Below, in pieces: positions 14,810 to 59,692 of a stretch of DNA of 60,399 nt. Source of the DNA: a virus; IMG/VR virus record IMGVR_UViG_3300047470_000247, positions 1 to 60,399 of that record; one strand, written 5' to 3'. The translations under genes were made by a program, and so were the position numbers. Each line of letters starts with the position of its first letter. The stretch's first letter is position 1. Below the pieces are notes generated by a model that worked only from the letters and a program-made list of their open reading frames with translations, ran no database searches and had not been told where the DNA came from.

Positions 14810-14852
14810 AAGATAAGCCAATGCCTAATGACTGTAAATAGGTAATGCCTAA
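14810..14852 (-). promoter_or_regulatory. PL promoter with two repressor operators
   Basis: On the minus strand TTTACA (14833-14838) and TATCTT (14810-14815) are separated by 17 bp. Two 15-bp operator-like sites overlap it: TAAGCCAATGCCTAA at 14814-14828 and ATAGGTAATGCCTAA at 14838-14852. They share the CCTWA half-site with sites at the cI-cro boundary, so one repressor probably controls both. Confidence 0.75.
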
Positions 14853-14935
14853 TTATTCTCAAATTCTTTGCCTCGTAGGAAAAGCTCTGACTCTGGGTAG
14901 GAATTTGGAAAGCGCTGAGATAAGCTTTGCTAAAC

Positions 14936-14951
14936 CTGTATGGATATCCAG
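14936..14951 (+). promoter_or_regulatory. LexA (SOS) box of the phage DUF1654 gene
   Basis: CTGTATGGATATCCAG is a CTG-N10-CAG palindrome very close to the Pseudomonas LexA consensus. It ends 16 bp before the DUF1654 start, so SOS induction should turn this gene on independently of the phage repressor. Confidence 0.8.
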
Positions 14952-14967
14952 TATTAGGAGTTCGGGA

Positions 14968-15285
14968 ATGGCGAAGGCGAAAAAACAAGAAAAGCCGGTA
15001 GTGCGGCACGAGGTAAGCGGGATAGAGCGGCTTGGTCTGAGAGTCTCGTCAATGATCAATCACCCGGTTGCGCAGATTCAGCGCTGGGTAACGATCCATC
15101 GCCTGGACACGGACGGAGATCGGGAGTGGGAGGAGGTGATGGGACTGCTATCCGAAACGGACGGTATAGACATGACATTCAACGACGATGAGTCGGTGAC
15201 GCTGAGATGGGAGGTTCAGGCCGAAGAAGATCGCGTGATCGACGTGGAGGATGTGCTGGAGGTGGAGGAGGTCGCGCCTTTCTGA
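14968..15285 (+). CDS. DUF1654 family protein, SOS-controlled
   Basis: A 105-aa protein. Residues about 18-80 align well with the host DUF1654 protein encoded at 59419-59658: GLRV, IN-P-AQ, RL and EWE occur at the same spacing, as do a late acidic pair and a Trp-Val. The basic N-terminal tail (MAKAKKQEK) and acidic C-terminal tail are extra. The start at 14968 follows TAGGAG by seven bases. With its LexA box and its own terminator it forms an isolated unit. DUF1654 has no established reaction; a DNA-damage-linked regulatory role is inferred. Confidence 0.85.
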   Translation: MAKAKKQEKPVVRHEVSGIERLGLRVSSMINHPVAQIQRWVTIHRLDTDGDREWEEVMGLLSETDGIDMTFNDDESVTLRWEVQAEEDRVIDVEDVLEVEEVAPF

Positions 15286-15293
15286 GTACGCAA

Positions 15294-15319
15294 AAAAGCC
15301 CGCTCGATGGCGGGCTTTT
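15294..15319. terminator. Bidirectional terminator
   Basis: A 10-bp stem AAAAGCCCGC/GCGGGCTTTT with a 6-nt loop lies between the DUF1654 gene (plus) and the DUF6941-like gene (minus). T-runs in both directions let it end both units. Confidence 0.85.
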
Positions 15320-16754: not shown

Positions 16755-17609
16755 TCAGACTAGGTGAGCGTTCCACACCAGAAGCACGCGAGCCTGAATG
16801 TAGGTCTCATCCGCTCTGATCGTTTGCGGTGGGTGCATTGTATTATCAGAAATCATATTGATCTGATCATCGCCAACCCATTGGAGCCGCTTGATGTAGA
16901 GGTGGCCTTCCCAGGAGAACATATAGATCCCGTCCCCTACGAACTCGCGAATACTGATGTCGACAAGGAGCGGATCTCGGTGCTTGATCGTGGGCGCCAT
17001 CGATTGACCCCATCCCGTCACCATCTTGAGATGGAAGTGCTCCTTGAACTCGACACCCATCTCGCGCAGATGCTGAGGGCTTACCCTTACGTCCTGGAGC
17101 AGTTCCGGATAGTCGTGCGGTATCTGTCCGCCACCCATAGCGGCCCGAACGTCGTAATGCGCAATCCACACCTCGTCACCGACGGCGCCTGGGCGATAGT
17201 AATCCAGCTCGATGACACCGCCGCCATCGTCGGCCTCAGCGACCGCAAGCACGCGGCTTCGCGCCTCCGCCGACAGGCCTTTAACTTTTGCCAAAGCCGC
17301 TTTCAACTGCTCAGTCGCAGATGAGGAGGGAGTCTGCGGATGATTTGCTGCGGATTTTACGCCGGCTGAATCATCTGAAAGATTTTCGTACGCAAAGCCA
17401 GGCCGCAAGCCCCAGTGCTCAGGGCCAACGTCATTGGCGAAATAGGCGATCACATCCATCAGTTTCGACTTGTCGATGCGGCCGTTTTTCACCCAGCCCT
17501 GTATCGACGGAGGCTTCACCTGGAAGTCGTCTGCGAGTTTCTTTTTCGATACGCCCTTGGCGATCCGCGCGGCCTCAATGGCAGCGCCTAATTCTGGTCC
17601 GGTAAGCAT
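16755..17609 (-). CDS. cI: CI-type repressor (HTH plus S24 peptidase)
   Basis: A 284-aa lysogeny repressor. Residues about 8-45 form the HTH (KGVSKKKLADDFQVKPPSIQGW). The C-terminal LexA/S24 domain has the serine in GWGQSMAPT (Ser203) and the lysine in YIKRL (Lys240). The place of the usual Ala-Gly cleavage bond reads RAAMGGG (155-161), so self-cleavage may be altered. An operator overlaps its start codon, and the gene is divergent from cro. Confidence 0.9.
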   Translation of the reverse strand: MLTGPELGAAIEAARIAKGVSKKKLADDFQVKPPSIQGWVKNGRIDKSKLMDVIAYFANDVGPEHWGLRPGFAYENLSDDSAGVKSAANHPQTPSSSATEQLKAALAKVKGLSAEARSRVLAVAEADDGGGVIELDYYRPGAVGDEVWIAHYDVRAAMGGGQIPHDYPELLQDVRVSPQHLREMGVEFKEHFHLKMVTGWGQSMAPTIKHRDPLLVDISIREFVGDGIYMFSWEGHLYIKRLQWVGDDQINMISDNTMHPPQTIRADETYIQARVLLVWNAHLV

Positions 17610-17678
17610 TGCCTAATTAAGCCTATCGGCAGATTGGTTAGGCAATGGCTTGTCGATGATAAGGTAATGCCTTATATT
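17602..17678 (+). promoter_or_regulatory. cI-cro operator region with PR
   Basis: Three 15-bp operator-like sites: GTAAGCATTGCCTAA (17602-17616, over the cI start), TTAGGCAATGGCTTG (17638-17652) and the symmetric TAAGGTAATGCCTTA (17660-17674). PR on the plus strand has TTGTCG at 17650-17655, 17 bp, TATATT at 17673-17678. Operators cover both promoter boxes. Confidence 0.75.
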
Positions 17679-17704: not shown

Positions 17705-17953
17705 ATGAAATCAGCAGAAGCAGCCAAAAAAGCATCTCGTTTGCTGGGCAGCCAGGCGGAGATGGCGCGCCTCCTGCGGGTTACAGCGCCAACCGTTAAC
17801 CAATGGTGCTCAGGCGAGCGTTCAGTACCAGCAAAGCGTGCGTTGCAAATCGAGGCATTGACCGAAGGCCAAATCAAAAAGGCCGACCTCTGCCCATCTT
17901 TTCCTTGGGGGCAGATCAACTCTGCGCCCAGCCAAACCCTTTCCGCCGCCTGA
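17705..17953 (+). CDS. Cro-like / YdaS-family regulator
   Basis: An 82-aa protein with the YdaS-type HTH (LLGSQAEMARLLRVTAPTVNQWCSGERSVPA in two short blocks), divergent from cI. GGAGAG lies upstream of the ATG. It is the expected early-lytic repressor that shuts off cI. The last 25 residues are a low-complexity tail. Confidence 0.85.
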   Translation: MKSAEAAKKASRLLGSQAEMARLLRVTAPTVNQWCSGERSVPAKRALQIEALTEGQIKKADLCPSFPWGQINSAPSQTLSAA

Positions 17954-53317: not shown

Positions 53318-53611
53318 TCACTTGGCATCCAACTGATGCCCTCTCGCCGAAATATCCAGTTCGCAAAGTTGCTCGCGCCGAGTCGCCGCCTCATCCGATC
53401 TCGATCTAAGGTTTGCCATCGCTTCATCACGCTGCTTGATCGCCTCCGTGTGCATCTCGACCAGCTTGAATATTTGCTCTCGCGCATTGCGCAGCTGTAG
53501 GTTCAATTCCTCGAACTCGTTCTCGTACATCCGTAGCTGGTGCCTGCAGGTTTCGAGTGGTGTCGGGCTGCCGAGCCAGTCATCGTTGTCTTCGATTTCG
53601 TGCGGGTCCAT
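53318..53611 (-). CDS. Coiled-coil hypothetical protein
   Basis: A 97-aa charged, strongly helical protein (YENEFEELNLQLRNAREQIF, then EAIKQRDEAMANLRSR). AAGG lies upstream of the ATG. A small right-end prophage gene of unknown role. Confidence 0.65.
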   Translation of the reverse strand: MDPHEIEDNDDWLGSPTPLETCRHQLRMYENEFEELNLQLRNAREQIFKLVEMHTEAIKQRDEAMANLRSRSDEAATRREQLCELDISARGHQLDAK

Positions 53612-54318: not shown

Positions 54319-54519
54319 GGCTGGGTCCTCGGTTATGAGGTCAGCGTAGCACCACGTTGAGAGGATATTTAACGGTCGGCAGAACGCCGGGAAGGGAAAC
54401 TACTGTAGGAATATACAACGCTAAGTTGTTGATTCTTATGGGGCGAAGCGGCGGTTTTGCACCCCCTATAAACAGACTAGTTTTCTTTATGGATCAATTG
54501 CTTGCGTAGGTTTCGGGGT

Positions 54520-54595
54520 CACCTTGACATGGTGGGGGTCGTTGGTTCGAGTCCAATCGCGCCTACCAAACAAAATCCGCTCTGCTGGGCGGTCT
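54520..54595 (+). repeat. attR core (76-bp direct repeat with attL)
   Basis: Identical to 40-115. The tRNA portion here (54520-54568) is only the 3' 49 nt, preceded by phage sequence, so this copy is not a functional tRNA. Confidence 0.97.
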
Positions 54596-58724: not shown

Positions 58725-59414
58725 TCAGCCGCAGGCCTTCATGTCTACCGGGCCGACGAACTCGTTGCCGCGCCCCATGACGCACCCCACGCTCTGGTTG
58801 CGTTGGCGCTCCCAGGTCTGTACCGGATAGGTCTTGTCCCAGGCTTCGTACAGTTGCCGATCCTGTTTCGACAGGCGCAAGCCATACTGCTTGCTCATGT
58901 AGAAGTAGGTCCGGGCGATCATGCCGCGAATGGAAGGGCGGGGCATGACTTTCTTGGCCTTGAAGTCGACCTGGGTCAGGCAGGAACCATATTGCCCCGA
59001 CTGCTCGGGTAGCCAGCCAAAGCTGAAGTTGCTGCGATCGCCATTGACCTCGCCAATGCTGGGCACCAGGTTATGCAAATCAGCCTCGGCCTTCTGGTAA
59101 ACCGGGTCGTAGCGGGTGCAGTTCTTGCGGCCGCCCTCTTGCCAGCACTGGCGTTGATGACCGATTTGCCAGGCCGGAACAATATGCTCCCACTCGATGC
59201 GGGATGCGCGTTTGGCATTTTTACGGGGCACATAACCGCAGGCGGCAAGGTTCACCCGGTTGCCGGTGTACTTGCAGCCACAGTAAAACTCGGTGGATTG
59301 GGGGGCGTAGAGCTTCCACGCCACTTTCTTCGCTTCAGTGAAGGTGCGCGGGGCATCGGCCTGCGCACCCATGACAAAGAACAGAAACAGCAAAGCAAAC
59401 CAGCGGACACTCAT
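58725..59414 (-). CDS. endA: Endonuclease I family (periplasmic/secreted DNase)
   Basis: A 229-aa nuclease of the EndA family with an N-terminal signal peptide (WFALLFLFFVMGAQA). The catalytic region RIEWEHIVPAWQIGHQRQCW and the DLHNLVPSIGEVNGDRSNF block are complete; paired Cys suggest disulfides. It cuts double-stranded DNA outside the cytoplasm. It lies four bases behind the DUF1654 gene and is surely co-transcribed from the LexA-controlled promoter. Confidence 0.92.
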   Translation of the reverse strand: MSVRWFALLFLFFVMGAQADAPRTFTEAKKVAWKLYAPQSTEFYCGCKYTGNRVNLAACGYVPRKNAKRASRIEWEHIVPAWQIGHQRQCWQEGGRKNCTRYDPVYQKAEADLHNLVPSIGEVNGDRSNFSFGWLPEQSGQYGSCLTQVDFKAKKVMPRPSIRGMIARTYFYMSKQYGLRLSKQDRQLYEAWDKTYPVQTWERQRNQSVGCVMGRGNEFVGPVDMKACG

Positions 59415-59418
59415 CGAC

Positions 59419-59658
59419 TCAATCTTCCTTCGGCACAACCCAGAAAATCTGCACGCCGCCATCGTCGCGATAGGCGAGGGTGACGTTGTCGTTCTCGTCG
59501 ATTTCTTCCAGCAAGCGTTCCCATTCATCCACCGGTTCGTCAGGCAGGCGGAAGATCAATGCCGCCCTGGCTTTTTGTGCGGTGGGAGAGTTGATGATTT
59601 TCTGAACGCGCAGGCCCATGCGTACATAGGTCTCAGGAGAGGCAGAGGTGGTGTCCAC
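59419..59658 (-). CDS. DUF1654 family protein (host)
   Basis: A 79-aa protein (TYVRMGLRVQKIINSPTAQK; DEWERLLEEIDENDN). GTG at 59658 is chosen since AAGGA lies upstream and a LexA box precedes it. It is a clear paralogue of the prophage protein at 14968 and forms an operon with endA. Function not established; control of the nuclease or of DNA repair is plausible. Confidence 0.88.
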   Translation of the reverse strand: MDTTSASPETYVRMGLRVQKIINSPTAQKARAALIFRLPDEPVDEWERLLEEIDENDNVTLAYRDDGGVQIFWVVPKED

Positions 59659-59676: not shown

Positions 59677-59692
59677 CTGTACGTGCATACAG
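59677..59692 (-). promoter_or_regulatory. LexA (SOS) box of the DUF1654-endA operon
   Basis: CTGTATGCACGTACAG on the minus strand, a CTG-N10-CAG palindrome with CTGTA/TACAG arms, 18 bp before the GTG start. Confidence 0.8.

Follow-up and report, generated by a model that had tools for sequence, protein, structure and literature searches.

The DUF1654 gene of the prophage described here is tentatively read, at somewhat below even confidence, as encoding an SOS-timed helper of prophage induction and recombination, whose C-terminal tail would dock on partners of SSB or on RecA. The support lies in the sequence, that is, in the LexA boxes, the place of the gene between the early-left promoter and cI, the identification of PP_3901 as a DUF1654 gene, and a C-terminal tip that is conserved among the phage copies and absent from the host copy. 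The window is the whole stretch of DNA that was analysed (60,399 nucleotides, IMG/VR virus record IMGVR_UViG_3300047470_000247).

Within the window, a tRNA-Val gene harbours a 54.4-kb prophage flanked by a 76-bp att repeat, and about 5.8 kb of host DNA follow to the right of attR. The boundaries are:

40–115, + strand: attL, 76-bp repeat, overlapping the tRNA-Val gene (12–88)
54520–54595, + strand: attR, 76-bp repeat

Since the repeat stands at these two places, the host DUF1654 copy is outside attR, as the earlier sequence-only reading had said; the host DUF1654-endA operon lies 5 kb beyond attR. At the right end of the prophage sits a second SOS-type gene, and a weaker LexA-like site, CTGTAGGAATATACAA (54403–54418), is found just left of attR with no obvious gene attached to it:

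53318–53611, − strand: the SOS-type gene itself, behind a LexA box and coding for a coiled-coil-like protein of 97 aa
53630–53645, − strand: LexA box of this gene (CTGTTTGTATATGCAG on the + strand), a full box in 76 of the 76 relatives with enough sequence

The phage DUF1654 gene has its own box and, as had been claimed, its own terminator:

14936–14951, + strand: LexA (SOS) box, CTGTATGGATATCCAG, ahead of the phage DUF1654 gene, kept in 80/80 closest phage relatives
14968–15285, + strand: phage DUF1654 gene with its stop codon, encoding a protein of 105 aa and pI 4.5 (PF07867, E 3.3e-25; phrog_2707, E 2.6e-36)
15019–15222, + strand: DUF1654 domain, predicted helix-helix-strand-helix-strand-strand (AlphaFold2 model, domain pLDDT 91–93)
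15294–15319, + strand: intrinsic terminator of the gene, from the sequence

The protein passes the gathering score of PF07867 with 88.1 bits against a cut-off of 27, and DUF1654 is the sole Pfam family above cut-off; Pfam gave no DinI-like or Tum match. No DNA-binding domain (HTH or ribbon-helix-helix) appears in Pfam or in the fold model, the OB-fold SSB domain (PF00436) has no Pfam match, and the predicted fold order differs from it. Comparison of the fold model with PDB and BFVD yielded no significant match, the weak R3H/KH-like and ribosomal S8-like fold matches being set aside as not significant, and a sequence search against solved structures returned no match for DUF1654.

The two DUF1654 genes of the window are each preceded by a CTG-N10-CAG palindrome, as had been noted from the letters. 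The phage box stands 16 bp before the ATG at 14968, and the host box 18 bp ahead of the likely GTG start at 59658. The bare palindrome occurs 26 times in the window, as against 20.6 expected, and was dropped as evidence for LexA when taken alone; because it is near chance, a single box proves little, and conservation was used instead. A full near-consensus box was present in 80/80 closest IMG/VR phage relatives, 11–43 nt before the start and mostly at 14–17, and in the same place in 80/80 host relatives of the endA-linked copy. Across phages, prophages and chromosomes together, 256 of the 258 DUF1654 genes have a box scoring at least 13, a threshold attained by fewer than 1% of shuffled upstream regions; the counts are drawn from related sequences and hence are not independent events. 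All 13 named phages carry the box (F116, LKA5, LESphi3, phi297 and others), that of TC7 falling inside an over-long annotated gene, and more distant members of the family have it in 21 of 25 cases. LexA control of both window copies is strongly supported by the conserved boxes. Promoter control of DUF1654 by LexA is thus well supported at the level of sequence. Since the box is nearly universal across DUF1654 genes, such control is not peculiar to the phage and host pair; it comes near to defining the family.

The host operon beyond attR consists of the following elements:

59677–59692, − strand: the operon's LexA box, which reads CTGTATGCACGTACAG on the coding strand, found in 80/80 host relatives
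59419–59658, − strand: host DUF1654 gene, beginning with GTG, for a tailless protein of 79 aa that ends VVPKED (PF07867, E 3e-30, cut-off passed)
58725–59414, − strand: endA, the downstream gene of the operon, for a predicted exported endonuclease I (PF04231, E 2e-37; signal-peptide-like N-terminus)

Here too the initial description holds: endA starts 4 nt on from the DUF1654 gene, and its signal-peptide-like N-terminus suggests a secreted-type DNase. The two DUF1654 proteins align along the domain, both belonging to PF07867, with 25 of 67 residues identical and z = 19 over shuffles, so that common descent is strongly supported. They fall into separate phage and host clades (SH-aLRT 96), and the split, as judged from the sequences, is old.

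From this pair the sequence-only reading had proposed that the phage protein could imitate or counteract its host counterpart, lowering EndA activity and thereby protecting phage DNA. Common ancestry, shared LexA control and the host DUF1654-endA operon speak for it, and endA is indeed beside DUF1654 in 80/80 host loci. But EndA is predicted to be exported and is not expected to encounter phage DNA that replicates in the cytoplasm, DUF1654 shows no HTH in Pfam or in the fold model, the phage and host clades parted long ago, and host copies of another lineage are not linked to endA: none of six low-scoring host copies in one group (L285–L290) has endA inside 2 kb. Because there is no DNA-binding domain, EndA is predicted to be exported and linkage to endA occurs in a single lineage, silencing of the nuclease is not supported; it is rejected as the main reading and considered highly improbable.

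The spread of the family offers several observations of its own. DUF1654 was detected in 102 of 119 genomes sampled from the genus Pseudomonas, 50 of 148 from the family, 4 of 146 from the order and 11 of 398 from the phylum, in samples that overlap, the outer ones (family, order and phylum) including Pseudomonas; DUF1654 proteins, which are small and acidic, are centred on Pseudomonas. It also occurs in many temperate phages of Pseudomonas, among them phages of P. aeruginosa. Through the DUF1654-endA operon, EndA is apparently an SOS gene in one Pseudomonas lineage (80/80 loci). The six divergent host genes L285–L290 bear a near-perfect LexA box, CTGTATTTACATACAG, and ycaC is the neighbour in the two of them that were scanned; no dinB adjoins these low-scoring copies, so there is no support for PA0922 of P. 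aeruginosa being a DUF1654 gene. In phage YMC11/07/P54 (L272, 2162–2809), a divergent DUF1654 pair, gp55 and gp56, is arranged around one LexA box, gp56 being very divergent. Tandem copies occur in L304 (G938 C166, 48978–49445), the second without a box of its own, and genome G953 (C2) has seven DUF1654 matches. A separate branch (L178, L223, L229, L252) lies near S24-type repressors in 4/5 loci; where positions were compared, its DUF1654 gene is directly downstream of the repressor on the same strand.

A functional lead comes from PP_3901 of P. putida. The primers for this gene printed in PMC4595014 match a single IMG/VR contig, whose identifier points to the KT2440 isolate genome, an exact search for a primer in 399 genomes of the genus having found no match, and the ORF that they bracket belongs to PF07867 (E 1.7e-32), with a LexA box, CTGTCTATGCATACAG, ahead of it. 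Judged by this sequence, PP_3901 encodes DUF1654. According to Abella 2007, as cited in PMC4595014, PP_3901 is in the LexA1 regulon as well as that of LexA2, and prophage genes need it for their induction by DNA damage; nalidixic acid induces a PP_3901 reporter in the data of PMC4595014 itself. In the tree, PP_3901 joins the branch of the host copies, apart from the phage copy of the window (SH-aLRT 96). Since it belongs to the other deep branch and has no tip, its function can be carried over at the level of the family only. By analogy with this distant relative, the window protein would act in prophage induction as PP_3901 does.

The phage DUF1654 gene follows the left operators on their right side, with the early-left promoter before it and cI beyond it, in a region laid out as follows:

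14810–14838, − strand: candidate early-left promoter, with TTTACA and TATCTT spaced by 17 nt, pointing away from the DUF1654 gene
14819–14831, no strand: candidate CI operator, left site 1
14843–14855, no strand: candidate CI operator, left site 2
16755–17609, − strand: CI repressor with S24 peptidase domain and intact Ser/Lys dyad, convergent with DUF1654, from a domain search
17607–17619, no strand: candidate CI operator, right site 1
17638–17648, no strand: candidate CI operator, right site 2, in inverted orientation
17665–17677, no strand: candidate CI operator, right site 3
17705–17953, + strand: cro-like gene (YdaS/P22_Cro domain match)

The candidate operators were recognised as repeated operator-like sequences: two of them (TAATGCCTAATTA and variants) flank and overlap the candidate leftward promoter (14810–14855), and three sites related to TAATGCCTAATTA lie between cI and the cro-like gene (17607–17677). 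None was found between the phage LexA box and the ATG, which fits the earlier statement that the phage copy stands outside the repressor-controlled operons. Among the 80 contigs of the tip-bearing clade, 64 have an S24-type CI no more than 3 kb from DUF1654, always on the opposite strand and at a median distance of 1.9 kb. The catalytic Ser and Lys are intact in 64/64, and CI has an Ala-Met/Leu-Gly motif at the position where LexA-like repressors are cleaved. S24 repressors also neighbour six of the 14 prophage-type genes near PP_3901 and four of the five of a further clade; within 3 kb of the endA-linked host copies none was found (0/80).

Tum of phage 186 is a LexA-controlled antirepressor. 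DUF1654 could likewise be an SOS-controlled antirepressor that binds and inactivates CI, or the repressors of superinfecting or co-resident phages. Its nearness to cI, in the window clade and in others, and its LexA control agree with such a role, as does the action of PP_3901 on other prophage genes reported in PMC4595014. But a CI with an intact dyad should be cleavable unaided, S24 repressors are missing within 3 kb of the endA-linked host copies, and the SSB-like tip is left unexplained, so that an antirepressor is judged quite unlikely. The same dyad counts against a helper as well, since induction may not need help where CI can cleave itself. Alternatively, DUF1654 might be a selfish moron, that is, a LexA-regulated accessory gene whose function is apart from induction and repair, for example phage exclusion in damaged cells. 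It has its own promoter and terminator and is flanked by variable moron-like genes, but many phages keep it at this same position, with cI on one side and the early-left operon on the other, and the necessity of PP_3901 for prophage expression, reported in PMC4595014, would be out of keeping with such a gene; this explanation is considered decidedly unlikely.

What sets the phage protein apart is its C-terminus, where about 20 residues predicted to be disordered (AlphaFold2) follow the domain and make the phage copy longer than that of the host:

15211–15282, + strand: C-terminal tail, predicted disordered, ending in an SSB-like tip (AlphaFold2 model, alignment)
15265–15282, + strand: C-terminal tip E-E-V-A-P-F-COOH (phage-clade alignment)

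In the phage clade the linker is acidic and variable in letters and length, and it is followed by a conserved E-E-x-A-P-F-COOH; F is the last residue in 107 of 109 proteins, and 104 finish with PF. Entropy is 0.15–0.60 bits at the E, E, A, P and F positions of the tip, as against about 2–3.4 bits at most linker positions. The codons for E, A, P and F vary synonymously, and for this reason the idea that the tip simply follows from constraint on the terminator DNA was rejected. The acidic residues followed by P-F-COOH are thus conserved as a short linear motif on a linker predicted to be disordered, which is what a protein bearing an SSB tip should show. The endA-linked host copies end VPKED or LPKED without the phage tip (80/80), none of the 1679 other ORFs of at least 100 aa in 80 host loci ends in the tip pattern, and DDDIPF is the terminus of the chromosomal SSB in five Pseudomonas genomes. 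The phage members F116, LESphi3 and phi297 lack the tip, which some phage forms can therefore do without. The SSB of E. coli binds RecO and other partners through its last residues (MDFDDDIPF), and RecOR assembly is altered, RecR4O being favoured (PMC7913777), while excess SSB tail peptide changes RecA nucleation (PMC5605508). From the likeness of the motifs, we infer that the phage tip may dock on SSB partners; no prior case of a phage mimic of the SSB tip was found in the literature searched.

Docking of this kind would also suit a protein that modulates host repair after SOS induction without any direct role in the lysis decision. That is to say, the tailed form would inhibit ExoI, RecQ or another SSB partner and so protect phage ends for a phage RecE/RecT-type system. 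The window phage does code for RecE-like and RecT-like proteins, RecT lies within 3 kb of DUF1654 in 14/80 contigs, the tip is conserved, and chromosomal copies are kept as SOS genes without a phage; yet most contigs have no RecT in the 3 kb scanned, and the need for PP_3901 in prophage gene induction, as reported in PMC4595014, is unaccounted for. A pure repair modulator is regarded as unlikely.

The preferred reading, a helper of induction and recombination, would work as follows. In the lysogen, LexA would keep the phage DUF1654 gene silent. On DNA damage, LexA would be cleaved in a RecA-dependent manner and the DUF1654 protein made, and the phage CI would presumably be cleaved by the same RecA filaments as LexA. 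The protein would then aid the switch from lysogeny to lytic growth: its folded domain would support damage-induced prophage expression, the part common to PP_3901, and its tip would tether it to an SSB partner or to RecA. A bolder form of the proposal, possible though doubtful, is that the tailed phage DUF1654 is an SOS-switched decoy in the SSB hub, redirecting RecA loading, replication restart or an exonuclease toward its own induction, and that the untailed DUF1654 of hosts and other prophages is an overlooked layer of the Pseudomonas SOS response controlling prophage induction. DUF1654 is annotated as a domain of unknown function, and in the literature searched a single paper uses the name. 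With the PP_3901 link, the family-wide LexA control and the SSB-like tail, it becomes a testable part of SOS-driven prophage induction, and if the tip does dock on SSB partners, the phage would possess a decoy for the SSB hub.

Four known systems can be set beside the phage gene. The host DUF1654-endA operon has a gene of the same family behind the same kind of LexA-controlled promoter, but its protein has no tail, an exported nuclease shares the operon, and an S24 repressor is nearby in 0/80 loci. PP_3901 resembles the window gene in Pfam family, upstream LexA box and prophage location, but it is of the endA-linked host branch, has 86 aa, ends PLED without the SSB-like tip, and shares 26 identities with the window protein over 90 aligned columns. 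Like Tum of phage 186, the window gene would be repressed by LexA in the prophage, stand apart from the CI operons and pass the SOS signal on to the phage switch; unlike Tum, its product gives no DinI-like or Tum match in Pfam, and the CI beside it carries its own S24 cleavage domain. Finally, in comparison with the C-terminal tip of SSB (DDDIPF), the phage tip is borne on an unrelated small domain that is not an OB fold, and it reads A-P-F in place of I-P-F, so that binding to SSB partners is not assured; but acidic residues, a terminal P-F and a disordered linker are common to both.
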